A DNA stretch of 64,000 bases from Nonomuraea polychroma. GTDB taxonomy: Bacteria > Actinomycetota > Actinomycetes > Streptosporangiales > Streptosporangiaceae. The position numbers were made by a program, and so were the translations under genes. Below the pieces are notes generated by a model. The model ran no database searches and was not told where the DNA came from. It saw only the letters and a program-made list of their open reading frames with translations. This document shows positions 29,513 through 43,600 of this stretch, piece by piece. The stretch is from contig NZ_SAUN01000001.1 of assembly GCF_004011505.1 (NCBI RefSeq), forward strand, positions 124,001 through 188,000. Reading direction: 5' to 3'. Every line of letters begins with the position of its first letter. Positions within the stretch are counted from its first letter, which is position 1.

Positions 29513-31555
29513 TCAGCCCTTGGCCGCGCCGTAGATCTCCCGGTGCCAGAGGTCCTCGCAGACCCGCTCGATGCCCGAGGCGAGGTGGCGGCGGTAGGTG
29601 GTGAAAGGCAGGCCGAGCCGCTCGGCAGCGACCTCCTGCGTCGGGGCGCCGCGCAGGAATGTCATGGACAGGGCCCGGTGCAGCTTGTCCGCGCGCGGGT
29701 CCCGCCGCACATCGTCGACGGCCTGCTCCAGGATCCGGCGCAGGGCACGGGCGGGGTCGGGCTCGGAGTCGTCGGTGACGATCCGGCAGCGCGTGAGCGG
29801 ACTGGCGGCCAGCTCGCCGGACCGGGACAGGTGGCGCAGCGCCTTCCGTACGGCGTCGCCGAACTCGGCCTGCGACAGCACCGCCAGCGCGGGGCCGGGA
29901 AGGGCCTGGACGTCCTGCGGGTCGCCGAGCAGTAGCCGGTTGAGCCGGTCGAGCCACGCCTGCGCGGGCGCCGCCCGCCAGTCGTGGGCGTACAGCGCGT
30001 ATTCGGTGTCGCCGAGCCAGGCGTGCTCGCCGACGTCGTGCATGTCGTAGTGCCGCAGGTAGTCCCGCATGGGGTCGTCGCTCCGCATGGCCATGAACGA
30101 CCAGGCCATGCGGTCCGCGCGCAGGCAGTAGCCGATGGACCGCCACTGGATGAGGTCCTGGACCGGCGACATGCCACGATATTCGGGGCGCACCCATGTC
30201 CGGCCGACGGCCAGGTGCTCGCCGGGCCGCAACGGAGCGAGCGCGCGGGCATTCGCCCAGGCCGTGGCCACGATCGGGTCGAGCGCTGCCTCCTCCTCGG
30301 ACGGCTCGTACAGCCGTAGCCAGGAGCAGAAGCCCACCAATTCGCCGGTCTCGGCCCGGCGGTAGAGGCGGAACGCCTCAGGTTGGCGAGCGGTCCAGTA
30401 GGCGACGGCGGTTGCCGACGCCTCGTTTTCCACCTCGGCCGCCATCCGCACCAGCGCCTCGGTCTCCGTGGGGCGGAAGGCGTCCTCGTACGCCTCGCCG
30501 TCTCCGCGCCAGCTGTTGAACTCCGAGGTCGAGCCGACGGCGCGGTGCAGGTAGAACAGCGAGCCGACGGCCCCGAGTACGAAGGCGTCGGGCGCGGCGC
30601 GCGTCTGGGCGGCGAGATAGTTGCTGATGCGCTCGTGCATCGCGGCGTATCCCTGGGGATCGCGCCACCGCAGGTCGGCCTCGAGCACCTCGCGGACGAC
30701 GTCGTGCGGGAACAGCCCACGCGGGCTGGACTCCACGAACGGCAGCCGCCGCAGCCAGGTGAACAGGGACGAGGCGTCCTCCGGCAGGATCTCGCGCAGC
30801 AGGTCCTCGGTGGTCATGTAGGCGTGCGCGCAGACCTCCAGCGCGTGCCGGTGCGTGGGGCTGGGCACCTCGCCGACGAGCTGGTCGAGCAGGGTGGCGA
30901 CGACGTCCTGCGAGGGCCTCCAGCGCGCGCTCGCCCGACTGTCCTTGGTCGCCACAGCCGCCCCTAGGGACAGGGCCAGGGGGTGGCCGCCGGCGAAGGC
31001 CAGCAGCGGCCCGCGTAGCTCGTCCGCCACGCCACGCGCCTCCAGCAGTGCGGCGGCGTCCGCCGGGGCGAGGTCGCGCAGCAGCAACACGTGCAGCGCC
31101 TCGGACCAGCCGGGGTCGGCGGTCCACATCACGTCCGGGGGGACGCGCCCGGCCACCACGACCAGCGCGCCGAGCGGCAGGCGTGGCAGGAACCGCTCGC
31201 GCAGCCAGCCCTCCAGACCCTGGATGCGCTCGAAGGTGTCGATGACGAGCACCGCGCGCTCGCCGGCGAGCACCGGCGCCGCCTGGGCCTCGAAGGCCAC
31301 CGGGGTCGGGTCCAGCGTGCGCCCGTCCAGCGTCGTCACCTGGCGTCCGAGGGCCGCCGCCTGTTGAGCAAAGCGGCGCAGCAACGCGGTCTTGCCGACG
31401 CCGCCGGGGCCGTGCACGTAAAGGACGCTGCGGGAGCCGCGCAGGGCGTCGGTGAGGACTCCGAGTTCTTCCTCCCGGCCCACGAACGACCGCTGCCGCA
31501 CCGCTTCCAAGTGCTGCTCCAACACCCCGAGCTCCTGCTCACTCCCGGAACACAT
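29513..31555 (-). CDS. STAND-type ATPase with C-terminal HTH
   Basis: About 680-residue signal-transduction ATPase. The N-terminal AAA_16/NB-ARC-like domain has FVGREEELGVLTDAL, Walker [13 protein letters not shown] and Walker B AVLVIDTFER. A winged-helix-like region follows. A middle part with RTWVRPEYRGMSPVQDLI resembles the acetyl-CoA loop of GNAT enzymes, which is tentative. The C-terminus TQEVAAERLGLPFTTYRRHL is an HTH of sigma-region-4 type. Start choice is uncertain: ATGs at 31618, 31612 and 31555 have no clear ribosome site. A truncated inverted copy of its ATPase domain lies at 33252-33470. Confidence 0.8.
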   Translation of the reverse strand: MCSGSEQELGVLEQHLEAVRQRSFVGREEELGVLTDALRGSRSVLYVHGPGGVGKTALLRRFAQQAAALGRQVTTLDGRTLDPTPVAFEAQAAPVLAGERAVLVIDTFERIQGLEGWLRERFLPRLPLGALVVVAGRVPPDVMWTADPGWSEALHVLLLRDLAPADAAALLEARGVADELRGPLLAFAGGHPLALSLGAAVATKDSRASARWRPSQDVVATLLDQLVGEVPSPTHRHALEVCAHAYMTTEDLLREILPEDASSLFTWLRRLPFVESSPRGLFPHDVVREVLEADLRWRDPQGYAAMHERISNYLAAQTRAAPDAFVLGAVGSLFYLHRAVGSTSEFNSWRGDGEAYEDAFRPTETEALVRMAAEVENEASATAVAYWTARQPEAFRLYRRAETGELVGFCSWLRLYEPSEEEAALDPIVATAWANARALAPLRPGEHLAVGRTWVRPEYRGMSPVQDLIQWRSIGYCLRADRMAWSFMAMRSDDPMRDYLRHYDMHDVGEHAWLGDTEYALYAHDWRAAPAQAWLDRLNRLLLGDPQDVQALPGPALAVLSQAEFGDAVRKALRHLSRSGELAASPLTRCRIVTDDSEPDPARALRRILEQAVDDVRRDPRADKLHRALSMTFLRGAPTQEVAAERLGLPFTTYRRHLASGIERVCEDLWHREIYGAAKG

Positions 31556-31968
31556 GGGAGTAACAGTAGTCACCCACGTATGAGGGACAGGCGTCCTCGA
31601 GTGTGTATTCATACGCATTTGGCGCGGCGGAGCCGGCCCTCGGAAGGTCTCACGGGGCGCGCTCCGGCCATCCCGAACAGCACCAAGGGACCGGGTGACG
31701 TGCGCCCGACCGAGCAGGTCGGTGCGGCGAGTTGCGCTGGCTCGGTCAGCGCGGGGTGCCGCCCAGGCCGTGCGTGGTGGACGGCACGACCATCGCGTGC
31801 GGGACTCCGGCGAAGTCGGCCGTGTGCCGGTTGAGCACCGAATGGGCAGAGAAATGACCTGGGTCCTGGACATTTCGGTGAGGAACCATCTTGGCCTGCG
31901 GTTTCGATCTGTGGACCCGAGCCGCATTCCATATGCCAAATAGATCGGCACGACCGAGGGGATGTTCC
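31556..31968. other. Intergenic region between STAND ATPase and LLM genes
   Basis: About 410 bp between divergent starts. I see no convincing gene, remnant or palindrome in it. The stretch next to the LLM gene is relatively AT-rich and is the likely promoter region; the far end may belong to the STAND gene if it starts at 31612 or 31618. Confidence 0.4.
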
Positions 31969-32862
31969 ATGGGCGGTATCGACGGTATGGATCTGGGCAC
32001 GTTCGGCATCTACACCTTCGACTTCGAGCATCAGCCGGCCGCGCAGATGCGCGAGTCAATCCAGGAACTGGAGAAACAGGGTTGGCGGGCCTTCTGGATG
32101 CCCGAACTCCTCGGACGTGAGGCGCTCACCCACGCCGGCTTTCTGCTCTCCTGCACCGAACGCCTGCACATCGTGAACGCCATCGCGCAGATCTGGTCCC
32201 GCGAGGCCAGGTGGACGCACGGCGCCGCCCTCCTGCTGGCCGACGCCTACCCCGACCGGCACATGCTCGGGCTGGGGTTCGGCGGGCAACGACGGCCGGG
32301 GACCAAGCCGCTGGCGGCCATGAGCGCGTACCTGGACGAGATGGACGCCCTCGAGATGCTCAACCCCGCGCCGAAGGCCCCGGTGCGCCGTATCCTGGCC
32401 GCGTACGGGCCGAAGATGCTCGAACTGGCCCGCGACCGCACCGCCAGCGCGCACACGTACCACGTCACCGTGGCGCACACCGCGCAGGCGCGGCAGATCC
32501 TCGGCCCGGACGCGTTCCTGGCCGTTGAGCACGCGGTGCTGTTCGAAACCGACCCTGCCGCGGCCCGCGCCATCGCCCGCCAGCACCTGGCCCCCTACCT
32601 GAACAGCCCGTACAACAGGACGAAGTTCCGCCGCCTGGGCTACGCGCAAGAGGAGATCGACGGCGGCGGCAGCGACCGGCTCATCGACGATGTCGTGTTC
32701 TGGGGGGACCTCGACACCATCGTCGGCAGACTCCACGACCACGTCACGGCCGGCGCCGACCACGTCGCCGTACAGGTGATCGGGATCGAACCGGGCCAGA
32801 CGGCGATGCCCTACTGGCGAGAGCTCGCCGACGCGCTCTCCCCCGCGCACGTCAATGCCTGA
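31969..32862 (+). CDS. LLM-class F420-dependent oxidoreductase (TIGR03620-like)
   Basis: 297-residue luciferase-fold enzyme. MDLGTFGIYTFDFEHQPAAQ, GWRAFWMPELLGREALTHAG, MLGLGFGGQR and RRILAAYGPKMLELARDR are characteristic of the TIGR03620 F420 subfamily. ATG 31969 is preceded by GAGGGG. It is a fourth LLM enzyme in the window but lacks the 20-bp motif found before the others, so it is probably controlled separately. The substrate is unknown. Confidence 0.87.
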   Translation: MGGIDGMDLGTFGIYTFDFEHQPAAQMRESIQELEKQGWRAFWMPELLGREALTHAGFLLSCTERLHIVNAIAQIWSREARWTHGAALLLADAYPDRHMLGLGFGGQRRPGTKPLAAMSAYLDEMDALEMLNPAPKAPVRRILAAYGPKMLELARDRTASAHTYHVTVAHTAQARQILGPDAFLAVEHAVLFETDPAAARAIARQHLAPYLNSPYNRTKFRRLGYAQEEIDGGGSDRLIDDVVFWGDLDTIVGRLHDHVTAGADHVAVQVIGIEPGQTAMPYWRELADALSPAHVNA

Positions 32863-32941
32863 GGGGGCCGGGGAACTGCCGTTGGCTTGGTGGCGTCCAG
32901 CGCATGTGACACAACGCCGCCTTCCGCGACCACTGCCCACT

Positions 32942-33250
32942 TCACATCCCAGGAACGCAGCGTGTCATAAACGGACCGAGGGCCGCGTGCGCCGTCTCCT
33001 CGTACCGGAGGACGAGCTTTTCCGGGTCGCTCTGCGTCCGCAACGCGTCGCGCAGCAACTCGGCCTGCACCAATGCCATCGAGATCCCCTGGCAGAACGT
33101 CGGGTAGGTGGTCGCCCACGCGTCCCCGACGCCGACCAGTCCGTCACCGACGGCCGCCCTCGCTGATCAGGTGCTGCCGCCGGGTGGCCGGGCCGGCCGT
33201 CGTCAGCACTCCGGCGATGGGCTCGCCGGGCACGCACCGGAGCCCTAGCC
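32942..33250 (-). pseudogene. Remnant of FAD-dependent monooxygenase
   Basis: The minus strand reads GEPIAGVLTTAG, then in another frame GLVGVGDAWATTYPTFCQGI and SMALVQAELLRDAL, ending at a stop at 32942. The GDA...GQGISMA block is the second FAD-binding motif of PHBH-type monooxygenases. The N-terminal FAD domain is absent and a frameshift separates the pieces. Confidence 0.6.
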
Positions 33251-33251
33251 G

Positions 33252-33470
33252 GCCGCGTTCGAGGCCGCGGCCGAGCCGGTGCTGCGCGACGAGCGGGCGG
33301 TCCTCCTGGTGGACACTTTCGAACGGATCCAGGGCCTGGAGGGCTGGCTGCGGGAGCGCTTCCTGCCGCGGCTGCGGGTCGGCGCGCTGCTGACCTTCGC
33401 CGGCGGCCATCCGCTGGCGTTGCTGCTGGGCGCGGCGGTGGCGGTGAAGGACGGACGCCGCCCTTCCGGC
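33252..33470 (+). pseudogene. Inverted, internally deleted copy of the STAND-ATPase domain
   Basis: The plus strand encodes RAVLLVDTFERIQGLEGWLR and ERFLPRLRVGALL, nearly identical to the Walker-B region of the minus-strand STAND gene, then jumps directly to TFAGGHPLALLLGAAVAVKD, which in the intact gene lies about 70 residues further on. No start, Walker A or C-terminus remains. It is a paralogue fragment in opposite orientation. Confidence 0.75.
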
Positions 33471-33582
33471 GTCAGCCGGCCTGCTTGGGCAGCTGTCGCG
33501 AGATCGTGCCGCCCAAGCGGATGACGCCCCGGAGGTTCCGGGGTGGGCGGCCGCCGGATCGGGGCGGCCGTTGGGACATGGC

Positions 33583-34005
33583 CTACTGCGTGGCTCGCCA
33601 GATGGTGTGGGTGTCGAAGACGGTCTCGAACCGCTGCGCGATCCCGTCCAGGAGGTGCCAGACATGGACGAACTTGGCCGCCCCTTCCTTACCGGTCGTG
33701 CGATTCACGCCGCGGTACTCGCCCTGGGCGAAGAGCTTGTCGCCCACGGGGGTGAGCTCGAACGTGGTGATCGTGAAGTCGGACCAGTCGACGGCGATCG
33801 GCGCCATCGCCTTTTCGAGGACCTCCTGGGGGCCGTGGTAGGTGCCGCCGGTCGCGCCGCCGGCCGCCACCGTCCACGTGACGTCCGGCGCCAGGCGCTC
33901 CATGAACCCCTGCATGTCGCCCGTGGCCAGCGCCGAGTAGATCTCGGTGACGGTCCGGCGGTTGATCCGCTCGGTCGGGGTGAGGGTCTTCGTCTCGGTT
34001 TCCAT
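33583..34005 (-). CDS. SnoaL-like / NTF2-fold protein
   Basis: 140-residue protein with the SnoaL-like fold. TVTEIYSALATGDMQGFMER and LAPDVTWTV form the first helices and strand, and EGAAKFVHVWHLLDG a late strand. Such proteins act as cyclases, isomerases or ligand-binding proteins; the specific role is unknown. ATG 34005 has AGGAG upstream. It stands alone among gene remnants, and a fragment of a second copy lies at 34563-34615 on the other strand. Confidence 0.85.
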   Translation of the reverse strand: METETKTLTPTERINRRTVTEIYSALATGDMQGFMERLAPDVTWTVAAGGATGGTYHGPQEVLEKAMAPIAVDWSDFTITTFELTPVGDKLFAQGEYRGVNRTTGKEGAAKFVHVWHLLDGIAQRFETVFDTHTIWRATQ

Positions 34006-35357: not shown

Positions 35358-35600
35358 GTTGACCGAAGAAGGGGATCTTGACATCACCGTTCGTGCCTGC
35401 TTTGCCCTGGTGAATGTGGAAGGCGGTCGGAGCGGCGATCCTCCTCCACTGGAACGCGTAGCTGACCTTGTTACCGCGGAGATGGAAGACGGGCACCGCC
35501 TTACCGTCCTTGTGTCCTGGAGCCGGCATCTCGTTCCTGCCGAGAAGGGCCGCGGAGAGATAGACGTCCGCTGCCGCGACGGGAGGCCGCCGATCCTCAC
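35358..35600 (-). pseudogene. Remnant of CHRD-domain protein
   Basis: The minus-strand frame gives VYLSAALLGRNEMPAPGHKD, then VFHLRGNKVSYAFQWRRIAA and PTAFHIHQGKAGTNGDVKIP. The AFHIHxGxAGxNG block is the CHRD-domain signature. The signal peptide and the second half of the domain are missing; the frame runs on into the TetR gene's sequence. Confidence 0.6.
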
Positions 35601-35662: not shown

Positions 35663-36643
35663 CTACCAGGGGATGTCGCTCGCGGCGGCGGGTTCGATGG
35701 CCACCGAGGGGAGGTCTTCCAGCAAGTCGGCGGCCGGAACGAAGAACAGGGTCCCGGTGACCGGGGCGGAGAAGTCGAGGATCCGGTCGTGGTTGCCCGG
35801 CGGATCGCCGATGAACATGTTCTCCAGCATCTTCTCGGTGACCGCCGGGGTGCGGGCGTAGCCGATGAAGTAGGTGCCGAACTCGCCCCGGCCGACGTTC
35901 CCGAACGGCATGTTGTCCCGCAGGATGCGGAGTTCCGTCCCGTCGGGGTCGGTGAGCGTGGTCAGCGAGACATGCGAGTTGGACGGCCTGACGGCGTCGT
36001 CCAGCTCGATGTTGTCCAGCTTCGTGCGGCCGATGATGCGCTCCTGAGTCTGCACGGGCAGGGCGTTCCACGCCTCAAGGTCGTGCAGGTACTTCTGTAC
36101 GATCACGTAGCTTCCGCCGGCGAAGTCGGGGTCCTCGTCGCCGATCAGGACCGCCGCGGCCGCCGCCGGACCCACCGGGTTCTCGGTGCCGTCGACGAAG
36201 CCCAGCAGGTCGCGCACGTCGAAGTACATGAACCCCTGCACCTCGTCCTCGACCGTGACCACTCCCCGCAGCCGGTTCATGATCTGGGACGCGAGCTCGA
36301 AACACAGGTCGAGCATTTCGGCGCGGATGTGGAACAGCAGGTCGCCCGGGGTGGCCACCGCACGGTGCGCGGCTCCGGAGACCTCGCGGAAGGGGTGCAG
36401 CTCAGCCGGTCGAGGTCCGTCGAAGAGGCGGTCCCAGGCGTCCGACCCGATGCCGGCGACGCAGCTCAGTCTGCCGCCCGGCACCCGGAAACCCACCGAC
36501 CGCGACAGCCCGGCCAGGTCGCCCAGCAGTTCCCGTACGACCGGTTCGCCGCCATCATCGATCCTCAGCACGAGGAAGACGGCGGCGGTCGTCAACGGGC
36601 TCAGTACCGGCTGCGGTACGCCGCTTCGCTCATCCGCCGCCAT
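35663..36643 (-). CDS. Dye-decolorizing (DyP-type) peroxidase
   Basis: 326-residue haem peroxidase. The GxxDG motif is GFVDG with catalytic Asp about 151. Proximal haem His about 224 is in SNSHVSL and distal Arg about 242 in LRILRDNMPFG; all key residues are intact. There is no signal peptide, so it is cytoplasmic or an encapsulin cargo, but no encapsulin gene is seen nearby. ATG 36643 has AAGGGGG upstream. Confidence 0.93.
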   Translation of the reverse strand: MAADERSGVPQPVLSPLTTAAVFLVLRIDDGGEPVVRELLGDLAGLSRSVGFRVPGGRLSCVAGIGSDAWDRLFDGPRPAELHPFREVSGAAHRAVATPGDLLFHIRAEMLDLCFELASQIMNRLRGVVTVEDEVQGFMYFDVRDLLGFVDGTENPVGPAAAAAVLIGDEDPDFAGGSYVIVQKYLHDLEAWNALPVQTQERIIGRTKLDNIELDDAVRPSNSHVSLTTLTDPDGTELRILRDNMPFGNVGRGEFGTYFIGYARTPAVTEKMLENMFIGDPPGNHDRILDFSAPVTGTLFFVPAADLLEDLPSVAIEPAAASDIPW

Positions 36644-40843: not shown

Positions 40844-43600
40844 TCACAGATCGCCCAGCAGGGCCCGAAGCTGGTTGCGGCTGCTCACACCAAGCTTCGG
40901 ATACACGTTATAGAGGTGGGAGCCGACCGTGCGGGGCGAGAGCATCAATTGCTCGGCGATCTCCCGGTTACGCAGTCCCTGCGCCGCCAGGCGGACGATC
41001 TCGCGCTGCTGGGTGGTCAGCCCCGCTAGCGGGTCGGCCGGGGCAGGCGCGGTGGCGACGCCGCTGGCCCGCAGTTCCGCGCGTGCCTCTTCGGCCAGGC
41101 CGATCGCGCCGAGCCGGGTGAACGACTCCAGTGCCGTGGCCAGGAGCGGGCGGGCGTCCAGGGGGCGCCGTTTCCTGCGCAGCCACTGGCCGTAGTGGAG
41201 CCTTGCCTGCGCGCGGGCCAGCGGCCACTGCTCGCCCGCCGGGTTCACCGTGGCGAGCCGGAAGTGGTGCTCGGCGTCCTTGGGATCGCCGGTCAGCGCG
41301 GCGGCGTGGTGAAGCAGCAGCGTCATCCGGGTGGTCGGCCGTGGGCCCAGCGCGGCGCGCACCGCCACGACGATGTGCGCCACCTCTTCCTGTCTGCCCG
41401 TCCGCTGGGCGGCCGCAGCCAGATCCGTGATCGCGCGGTGGGACAAGAAGTAGTGCAAAGGAGCGCCGTCCTCGTCGAACAGCAGCCGTAAGTGGCGGAA
41501 CGCGCCGTCGAAGTCGCCGGCTGCGGCGGCGGCGGTGCCGGCGGCGCGCAGCAGGCGCGCGTGCGTGGCGCGGTTCTCCTCCAGCCCGACGGCCATCCAC
41601 GCCGGGTCGGCCGGCATGACGGCGGGCTGCCCGCGCAGGGCCTGCAGGGTGATCCGCAGCGCCTCGACGTCGATCTCCAGGTGCCTCAGCTTTTGGACCG
41701 CCGTCAGCGTTGCCGTCATCTCCAGATGCTCGTCGGCCTCCGCCCACCGCCCGGTGTCGATCAGCGCCGATGCCATCGTCGCGAGCGAGGGTCCGGCAGA
41801 GCCCATGGACCCGTACGCCGCCAGCATGGCGTATGCCTGCCGGAAGAACTCCACGCACAGGCCGGACTCGTCGGCGTACGAAGCGACCGCGCCGAACGTG
41901 TGCAAGCGGGTCATCTTCGCCACGTCGTCCTCCGCCTCCGGCGGGTCAGGCCGCCGGAGTATCCGCCGCAGCAGCTCGGGGGCGGTCCTCGGATCGGCCC
42001 CGGCCAGGGCCGCGGCCCGCACTCCGTCGGAGGTTTCGGCCGTCCTCAGTTCGGGGTAGGGCGTGTCTCGGCCGTCGGCGTCGATTCCCTCGAGAAGAGC
42101 CGCGATCGGACGCCTGATCTCGGGCAGCCCGGACTGGAATGCGACCGCGTGCATGTTGGACGCAAGAGCGAGCACCGTCATGCCATCCCGGGGCTGATCC
42201 GGCTCGAGGGCGCTCATGAGCACCTGGAACGCCTCCCGTTGGCGGCCGAGCAGCGACAGGGCCAAGCCGGCTCCGCACGCCGCGATGCCAAGTACATCGG
42301 GATCACGCGTCAGTGCGATGACCCTGCCGTACAACTCGCGTACCCACGAAGGGTCGCCGGCGTTGTTGGCGGCTCTCAGCGCCTTGGCGTACCGGCGTGC
42401 CCGATCGGCGGGTACGGGGCTGCACTCCGCCGACCGCTCGAGCGCCCGCGCCGCCGCGAAGAAACCGCCGCGCCGCTCGGCGAGCTCCGCGGTGTCCTCC
42501 AGCGCCGCCGCCACCGACTCGTCGTGGCCGAGACACGCGGCAGCCAGATGCCAGGCCCGGCGGGCCGGATCAGCTGTCAGCACCGCCGCCAAATCCCGAT
42601 GCGCCTGCTGCCTGAGGTAGGCCGGGGCCCCGTGATAGGAGCCCGCACGCGCCAGCGGATGCCGGAAGGCGACCCGCCCGTCCACGACGGTGACCAGGCC
42701 GGCGTCCTCGGCGGGAGCCCATACCGCGAGGTCCGGCCCCGCGCCGGTGGCGGCCATGATCGTGGCCAGGTCTTCGTACTGCGACGCCGCCGCCGCGTAC
42801 AGGATCAGCCGCTGGGTGATCTCCGGCAGGCCGCGCAGGCGTGCGGCGTACATCTGCTGGATGCGCTCGGTCTGCGGCAGCCCACCACCGGGCATCCCTT
42901 CCGGGCCGCCCGTCCTGGTCGCCCGGCACAGTTCGATGATGGCCAGCGGATTCCCACCGGACTGCTGGAGCACATCGATGCGAGTTCGGCCGGTCGGCGG
43001 GTGCGGCTGAGCGTCCACGAGTTCGGTCGCGGCCTGCTCGGTCAGCGGCCCCAGAAGCAGCGTGGGCAGGTTACCGGCGACACCCTCCGGAGGCGTCTGC
43101 CCACGCGCCGCCAGCAGCACCGAAACGTCCTCCGTCGAGATACGGCGGGCCACGAAGCCCAGAACGTCGAGAGAGTCCCGGTCGCAGTGCTGGACGTCGT
43201 CCACGGCAAGCAAGACGGGCTGCCGCAGGGAGACGCCGGTCAGCAACGTCAGGACCGCCACACGCAGCAGCGTCGGGTCAGGCTGCCCGCCCGCCGGAGC
43301 GATGCCCACCGCACTCTCCAACGCTTCCCGCAGATGCTCGGCAAGCGTGCCGGCCTCCGGCAGGACAGGAAGAAGTAACTGGTGCAAGGACGCGAAGGAC
43401 TGCTGCGACTCCGCCTCGCTGCCCTGACACGCCAGTACGGCCCATCCGCTGCCGCGCGCATGGTCGGCGGCGGCAGCCACCAAGCTTGTCTTGCCGGCGC
43501 CGGCCTCGCCGAGCAGGAGCAGCATCCGCGATCTGCCGCGATCCGCCTCGATGACGTCCAGGACGCGACGGATCTCGGATTGCCGGCCGACCAGTGTCAT
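40844..43600 (-). CDS. LuxR-family LAL transcriptional regulator
   Basis: 918-residue large ATP-binding LuxR regulator. The N-terminal AAA domain carries LVGRQSEIRRVLDVIE, Walker A GEAGAGKTS (about 31-39) and Walker B PVLLAVDDVQ (about 128-137). A long helical-repeat middle region follows. The C-terminal LuxR HTH is LTTQQREIVRLAAQGLRNRE and IAEQLMLSPRTVGSHLYNVY. The start at ATG 43600 matches family N-termini. It lies directly upstream of the four hydrolase genes on the same strand and may activate them, an inference from position. Confidence 0.92.
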   Translation of the reverse strand: MTLVGRQSEIRRVLDVIEADRGRSRMLLLLGEAGAGKTSLVAAAADHARGSGWAVLACQGSEAESQQSFASLHQLLLPVLPEAGTLAEHLREALESAVGIAPAGGQPDPTLLRVAVLTLLTGVSLRQPVLLAVDDVQHCDRDSLDVLGFVARRISTEDVSVLLAARGQTPPEGVAGNLPTLLLGPLTEQAATELVDAQPHPPTGRTRIDVLQQSGGNPLAIIELCRATRTGGPEGMPGGGLPQTERIQQMYAARLRGLPEITQRLILYAAAASQYEDLATIMAATGAGPDLAVWAPAEDAGLVTVVDGRVAFRHPLARAGSYHGAPAYLRQQAHRDLAAVLTADPARRAWHLAAACLGHDESVAAALEDTAELAERRGGFFAAARALERSAECSPVPADRARRYAKALRAANNAGDPSWVRELYGRVIALTRDPDVLGIAACGAGLALSLLGRQREAFQVLMSALEPDQPRDGMTVLALASNMHAVAFQSGLPEIRRPIAALLEGIDADGRDTPYPELRTAETSDGVRAAALAGADPRTAPELLRRILRRPDPPEAEDDVAKMTRLHTFGAVASYADESGLCVEFFRQAYAMLAAYGSMGSAGPSLATMASALIDTGRWAEADEHLEMTATLTAVQKLRHLEIDVEALRITLQALRGQPAVMPADPAWMAVGLEENRATHARLLRAAGTAAAAAGDFDGAFRHLRLLFDEDGAPLHYFLSHRAITDLAAAAQRTGRQEEVAHIVVAVRAALGPRPTTRMTLLLHHAAALTGDPKDAEHHFRLATVNPAGEQWPLARAQARLHYGQWLRRKRRPLDARPLLATALESFTRLGAIGLAEEARAELRASGVATAPAPADPLAGLTTQQREIVRLAAQGLRNREIAEQLMLSPRTVGSHLYNVYPKLGVSSRNQLRALLGDL

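Follow-up and report, generated by a model that had tools for sequence, protein, structure and literature searches.

MalT, AfsR, plant NLRs and Avs all have a STAND protein as their common switch. Repeats form the sensor in most of them, although not universally (PMC6468293), and the mechanism of MalT and the LAL regulators is treated in two papers (PMC6468293, PMC4381067). In AfsR, a large SARP, the NOD and TPR parts inhibit and the binding of ATP relieves the inhibition (PMC10936776), while the SARP-LALs, covered in a review of the SARP classes, are also without a C-terminal helix-turn-helix (HTH) (PMC10972967). Another actinobacterial STAND regulator, IniR, belongs to a mycobacterial cell-envelope stress operon and has a putative sugar-binding domain with trehalose as the cue (PMC5760070). 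Here, we describe a gene of Nonomuraea polychroma that lies in a stretch of 64,000 nucleotides (the window; contig NZ_SAUN01000001.1, positions 124,001 to 188,000) of a genome of 11.52 Mb in a single contig. Its product resembles MalT and the LALs in having an AAA switch, a predicted winged helix, a probable middle sensor and a C-terminal HTH, but the sensor has a GNAT fold where theirs is TPR, and no LuxR-type HTH is seen in the 25 members of its family that were scanned. We consider it probable that the gene encodes a MalT/AfsR-like STAND transcription regulator with a GNAT-fold sensor. The gene and its parts are as follows.

29513-31555, minus strand: intact gene of 680 residues, whose product joins a STAND AAA switch to a probable winged helix, followed by a GNAT-fold domain and an HTH at the C-terminus.
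30914-31483, minus strand: nucleotide-binding domain with its lid (residues 25-214 of the model), from PF13191 and fold matches to STAND, Hda and other AAA+ proteins.
30551-30913, minus strand: residues 215-335, predicted to form a winged-helix domain and further helices; the winged helix was assigned by eye from the way the elements follow one another in the model.
29978-30499, minus strand: GNAT-fold domain with a degenerate coenzyme A (CoA) loop (residues 353-526), from two models, fold searches and conserved residues.
29525-29878, minus strand: helical linker and HTH at the C-terminus (residues 560-677), from weak HTH profiles, model helices and a conserved TYRRHL.

The gene encodes a real, maintained STAND protein, and a regulator role is most likely. 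An open frame of 848 codons opens at a TTG at 32059; since the alignments of homologues begin only at the ATG at 31555, the TTG start is unsupported and the gene is taken as 29513-31555. Two close orthologues are 97% (locus L109) and 95% (L038) identical. Conservation was read from 93 distinct members of at least 450 residues, a subset of all matches, drawn from loci taken with their flanks (the window, L038-L068 and L089-L148); 100 members became 93 once repeats were removed, shorter broken or cut members and SARP-fused members were left out. Both L070 and L074 had been taken in a wrong frame in one alignment and were dropped from use. The nucleotide-binding domain matches PF13191 at E 8.5e-8 (33.3 bits, cut-off 32.6). 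Within residues 25-214 we take GPGGVGK to be Walker A, VLVID to be Walker B, and AGR and GGHPLAL (GxP-like) to be further motifs of the switch; on this presumed assignment the protein has the Walker A, Walker B and sensor arginine of a P-loop NTPase core, and K55, D106 and R137 are kept in 90, 91 and 90 of the 93 members. The top two Foldseek matches by E-value are a STAND-TPR protein (6mfv) and a MalT entry (8bob), at low whole-chain TM-scores of about 0.2. Behind the lid, where a STAND winged helix is expected, the secondary structure of the model puts helices and a short hairpin, and residues 215-340 hold 35 columns at 88% identity or more. No repeat sensor family (TPR, WD40 or LRR) was found among the Pfam matches of the protein and the relatives scanned.

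The first-pass annotation, made from the letters of the window, had proposed one protein with an AAA-type switch, an acetyltransferase-like middle and an HTH end, and had called this combination unusual. Open frame, PF13191 match and predicted fold bear out the combination, and it is indeed unusual; and structure prediction of the middle region, which might have returned plain helical repeats, gave a GNAT fold. In two AlphaFold2 models, one of the whole protein and one of the domain alone, the region has a mean predicted local confidence (pLDDT) of about 86. The GNAT part of the whole-protein model superposes on Naa50 (2psw; Z 13.6, 2.7 Å, 149 residues), an overlap of about 150 residues at 2.7-2.8 Å across the models. 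The domain-alone model (pLDDT 85.7, predicted template-modelling score (pTM) 0.84) has three fold matches tied on top, the histone acetyltransferase (HAT)-like domain of O-GlcNAcase (6r45; Z 13.3, 2.9 Å, 158 residues), Naa50 (Z 12.9) and FeeM (Z 12.9), and among the matches listed most are named acetyltransferases or GNATs. The evidence by sequence is weak: PF00583 reaches E 0.028 in the whole protein and E 0.0017 on the domain alone (19 bits, under the cut-off of 20.7), so that no Pfam cut-off is attained, and a profile search of the PDB gave two chance-level matches.

The acetyl-CoA loop pattern R/Q-x-x-G-x-G/A occurs in 2 of the 93 members and is absent from the window protein; at the loop stand S463 (78/93) and P464 (62/93). 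Other residues of the domain are nearly invariant, namely R452 (93/93), W387, R399, D426 and P427 (91/93 each), D525 and R527 (89/93 each), and E446. Because the CoA pattern is so rare while these residues are kept, we read the GNAT part as a ligand sensor and not as an ordinary acetyltransferase; the domain thus appears to be maintained, yet not as a standard acetyl-CoA enzyme. The ratio of nonsynonymous to synonymous rates (dN/dS) points the same way: in comparisons of the window gene with its relatives the GNAT domain gives 0.14 (L038), 0.12 (L109), 0.22 (L040) and 0.21 (L110), and in four of six ortholog comparisons no other of the four domains has so low a value.

It is also conceivable, if rather unlikely, that the GNAT domain is an active acyltransferase that draws on an unusual donor (an acyl carrier protein-bound acyl group, an aminoacyl group or another acyl group), controlled by the AAA switch and brought to DNA or to a partner by the HTH. 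Enzymes are indeed among the fold matches (FeeM, an N-acyl amino acid synthase, over 172 residues at 3.4 Å, and SbzI with a carrier protein, Z 12.2), R452, E446, D426, D525 and R527 are nearly invariant, and the dN/dS values show a strongly constrained domain. The scarcity of the CoA loop pattern argues against it, as does the fact that the tied top match 6r45 is the HAT-like domain of O-GlcNAcase, whose relative 3zj0 is titled a pseudo histone acetyltransferase. Nor was a free-standing form seen in 198 genomes, where the domain profile, with at most 16 candidates scored per genome, gave seven matches in five genomes, all within frames of at least 698 residues, and the fusions to SARP described below suggest regulation.

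The conserved HTH within the C-terminal 120 residues had been called sigma-region-4-like. In 25 members this agrees with one weak profile (Sigma70_r4_2 in 8, best 7e-4), but an Xre-like HTH profile matches about as weakly (in 7, best 1.9e-4), and no LuxR-type (GerE) model is among the 17 Pfam families found at E <=0.1. A search of PDB sequences with the HTH profile was set aside, having returned helical-repeat noise only. The best evidence for a transcription regulator comes from two relatives, L003 in the host genome and L034, in which a SARP activator (Trans_reg_C and BTAD) precedes the same AAA-GNAT core and the alignment with the window protein stops after the GNAT domain: the output end is swapped and the core kept. 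The SARP end (OmpR-type DNA-binding domain and BTAD) is absent from the Pfam matches of the window protein. Five more frames of 805-913 residues in the order scan, which align to the AAA-GNAT part only, are probably of the SARP-fused kind too. At L063, L141 and L142, in three genomes, a divergent SARP-type protein (Pfam BTAD and AAA_16 in L063) adjoins the STAND-GNAT-HTH gene.

If the protein works as its architecture suggests, the nucleotide-binding module, switched by ATP and ADP, and the winged helix would keep it shut until the sensor detects a signal, the GNAT fold standing in for TPR, WD40 or LRR repeats. Opening and oligomerisation would then free the DNA-binding end to act. The GNAT domain may bind a small ligand, be it acyl, amino-acid or related to the cell wall, without acetylating a target. 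Likely targets would be its own promoter and a recurrent neighbour, a MonCI-like flavin adenine dinucleotide (FAD) monooxygenase; one clade has vanY and a racemase-murF-ddl group as its neighbours.

The neighbourhood of the gene in the window contains the following.

31602-31617, minus strand: candidate operator, the dyad TGCGTA-tgaa-TACACA, starting 62 bases before the start codon.
32947-33231, minus strand: remnant of an FAD monooxygenase, 82.6% identical in nucleotides to that of L039 and 80.4% to that of L041, and 70-76% in amino acids over about 60 residues.
33239-33454, plus strand: relic of another paralogue, of clade 2, in which 33239-33388 and 33387-33454 meet across a deletion, from nucleotide identity and frame.
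31969-32862, plus strand: F420-dependent LLM-class oxidoreductase (TIGR03620, 282.4 bits, cut-off 219.8).
33583-34005, minus strand: SnoaL-like protein (PF12680), a shared neighbour, 97-98% identical in nucleotides in L038 and L109.

An inverted, internally deleted partial copy had been noticed at 33252-33470; it is real, with its bounds moved to 33239-33454. It matches the intact gene over 169 nucleotides at 78% and 78 nucleotides at 77%, far above chance, and as protein at E 4.7e-19 with a TAG inside. The accompanying claim that the family has duplicated and decayed here survives in its outline, but the relic is of the other paralogue clade, with its monooxygenase, rather than a copy of its intact neighbour. 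It is 89.3% identical over 150 nucleotides and 95.6% over 68 to the clade-2 gene at L041, and over 45 residues it is 84% identical to the clade-2 genes of L041, L045 and L039, against 76% to the intact neighbour and 80% to one clade-1 gene (L039), within four points of clade 2. With less than 10% of the columns the relic was left out of the tree, so its placement in clade 2 rests on identity and gene order. The monooxygenase remnant lies beside it in the order and orientation of L039 and L041, and on these grounds we reject a local duplication of the intact gene as its origin. At L109 the same block retains clade-2 residues 340-684 (the C-terminal half) and monooxygenase residues 125-287, and at L038 the stretch corresponding to 31628-33574 of the window is missing, 1.9 kb being replaced by 52 bases. 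Most simply, an ancestor had the entire block, which then decayed separately in each lineage; because monooxygenase and second paralogue decayed in the window, the surviving gene stands without its usual partner. A phage-type integrase and a small Cro/C1-type HTH gene adjoin the clade-2 gene at L039:1-1115, L041:833-2279, L045:4416-5758 and L059:4353-5725, and in L059 the pair also adjoins MurF; it may be how the block moves.

Such wreckage could mean that the surviving gene is itself decaying and no longer has a role in this strain, all the more as some other family members are broken or carry stops. We find this improbable, given a full-length frame under a whole-gene dN/dS of 0.26-0.27 against the two close orthologues of L038 and L109 (0.12-0.14 in the GNAT domain) and a dyad conserved at -62. 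That dyad, in the form TGYGTA-N4-TACRYR, starts 62-63 bases upstream of six clade-1 genes, including that of the window, and 72 bases upstream of one other; it is the only such site in the window at one mismatch or fewer, and 3 of 100 shuffles do as well. We regard its role as an operator as a lead only. A regulon sought from the pattern was unconvincing: of the other two sites in the host genome, one falls within a kinase gene (L153) and one is upstream of a CHRD-domain protein (L152). The L152 site precedes an intact CHRD protein, and in the window a frame at about 35370-35529, minus strand, looks CHRD-like by eye (FHIHQGKAGTNG).

The first-pass annotation had asked for a survey of neighbours in defence or secondary metabolism; this found no recurrent defence genes among the 121 adjacent genes scanned, and did find recurrent metabolic and cell-wall genes. 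An FAD monooxygenase lies within three genes and 5 kb of 25 of the 93 members, a figure that does not stand for 25 events because related genomes share synteny, and that is tied to the way the family was found because the profile was built from the neighbours themselves. In 18 cases it is the immediate neighbour: 11 of these lie downstream in the same orientation, with gaps of 33-846, six are divergent and one is convergent. Three of them (L040, L091 and L097) are short pieces, and the neighbour at L144 has no Pfam match at 1e-5, yet is 32% identical to the monooxygenase of L041. The nearest solved relatives of the latter are the epoxidases MonCI and Lsd18/LasC (E 3e-15 to 2e-13). In the tree the link turns up in clades 1 and 2 and again in distant groups. 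For comparison, the host genome has two monooxygenase matches at E <=1e-8, one of them the window remnant, and 13 family-bearing genomes hold 27 (E <=1e-10; one to four each), 15 of them within 6 kb of a member when positions are compared.

VanY is found at 15 of the 93 members, always directly upstream on the same strand with a gap of -17 to 127, and 20 members have two or more of racemase, MurF and Ddl inside 6 kb. Locus L054 exceeds NCBIfam cut-offs for VanY-N (364.8 bits, cut-off 250), MurF, D-Ala-D-Ala ligase and amino acid racemase, and the other loci of this kind were recognised by their similarity to it. Its response regulator falls under the cut-off of 350 for both CseB (269 bits) and VanR (159 bits) and, being nearer CseB than VanR, does not establish vanRS identity. 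In the host genome racemase, MurF and Ddl lie at about 9.82 Mb, and an HTH-only scrap of the family (L090:929-1123, at about 9.8327 Mb) lies some 6 kb from Ddl; no vanY was tagged within the 30 kb read at this group (L089).

Several points weigh against our interpretation. Monooxygenases are lacking near 68 of the 93 members, and 73 are without two of racemase, MurF and Ddl. The monooxygenase background in the 13 family-bearing genomes is a lower bound because the query missed a known monooxygenase neighbour in genome G457 (L094) and because the genomes were mostly chosen for showing the link. The dyad precedes only 7 of the 93 members and occurs genome-wide at three places against one for the control, hardly above background. 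The HTH profile matches are weak and divided between sigma-70 region 4 and Xre-like families, and the dN/dS of the GNAT domain is not the lowest against L041 (0.31; AAA 0.29) or in L038 versus L109 (0.16; winged helix 0.12). Finally, what the analysis shows is the domain order, the predicted fold, the conservation, the linkage and the decay; DNA binding, ligand sensing, ATP switching and the targets are what we infer.

The remark that STAND proteins often sense invaders raised an anti-phage role of the Avs or NLR kind, with the GNAT or HTH end as effector. A GCN5-like acetyltransferase domain has been listed among the effectors of other conflict systems (PMC7159879). Avs3, Avs4 and plant NLRs do appear among the fold matches, as does AVAST5 at Z 13.8, but with 10.4 Å over 240 residues. 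PADLOC gave weak matches in the P-loop stretch of the protein (PDC-S01, E 0.0015), and single neighbours match its models (a reverse transcriptase, PD-T4-6, mad6 and a TAP-like protein); no PADLOC family was matched near more than one member in the 121 of 153 adjacent genes scanned, those left out being mostly near-identical clade-2 neighbours. With recurrent neighbours that are metabolic or cell-wall genes, and SARP-fused sisters, the suggestion of defence finds no support, and we rate it very improbable. The MalT/AfsR-like regulator remains the reading that we favour.

The family was found in 37 of 150 genomes of the same taxonomic family (E <=1e-30), in 73 of 297 of the order (E <=1e-60) and in 15 of 396 of the phylum (E <=1e-30), including other classes at about 40% identity. 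One genome of 7.4 Mb (G098) carries six full-length members (L066, L067 and L101-L103). Gene starts at the loci used for the neighbour counts are approximate because genes were called by our own codon-usage script. As for the surroundings of the intact gene, the SnoaL-like gene adjoins it in L038, and the liv-type ATP-binding cassette transporter beside it shows only some 25-43% likeness to those in L039, L059 and L060. Elsewhere in the window, 35663-36643 encodes a Dyp-type peroxidase (PF20628, PF04261) and 40844-43600 a large protein of 918 residues that by eye has a P-loop and may be a LAL-type regulator.

A compact sensor with an enzyme fold, its cofactor loop lost and its own residues conserved, would show how a STAND switch might read a metabolite directly, and would offer a small domain for a ligand search. 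The tight linkage to vanY in one clade raises a testable question: do relatives of Nonomuraea have a cytoplasmic sensor for glycopeptide-type remodelling besides the membrane histidine kinase? A broader proposal, which is speculative and probably goes too far, is that one class of bacterial STAND switches adapted a GNAT fold for ligand sensing, with outputs that can be exchanged (an HTH at the C-terminus or a SARP at the N-terminus), and that the clade directly behind vanY and facing racemase-murF-ddl reads a cell-wall precursor or an antibiotic-derived signal, giving a further cytoplasmic control of peptidoglycan remodelling beside the two-component pair. In the literature searched, which excluded most subscription journals, we found no description of a STAND-GNAT-HTH or SARP-STAND-GNAT protein.

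Among known systems, the vanRSY loci of the Streptosporangiales are matched by L054 in VanY-N, racemase, Ddl and a two-component pair; for vanRSY, colocalisation with racemase and Ddl was reported as rare (PMC8698665), and in the available part of that paper a STAND gene behind vanY is unmentioned (AAA, ATPase and ATP-binding protein each with no occurrence). The window gene itself differs in lying outside such a locus. IniR, set beside the family by its description, is an envelope-tied actinobacterial STAND regulator. The large SARPs and SARP-LALs are approached through L003 and L034, which join a SARP to the same AAA-GNAT core, while the window protein lacks the SARP end and has a GNAT domain where TPR stands; "acetyltransferase" does not occur in the main text of the review on SARP classes (PMC10972967) as far as it was available.

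Kre33/NAT10 joins an ATPase to a GNAT domain, and to our knowledge has no HTH. Of the first 13 Foldseek matches, five come from ribosome-processing complexes as single chains, with Kre33 named in one entry, and they may be a domain-by-domain echo of this ATPase-GNAT pairing in the predicted model; the likeness is at best domain by domain because the whole-chain root-mean-square deviation is 26-28 Å. With the GNAT superfamily itself (Naa50, the O-GlcNAcase HAT-like domain and FeeM) the window domain shares the fold over 147-172 residues at 2.7-3.4 Å, but it departs from that superfamily in lacking the CoA loop pattern and in carrying a helical insert between strands 3 and 4.

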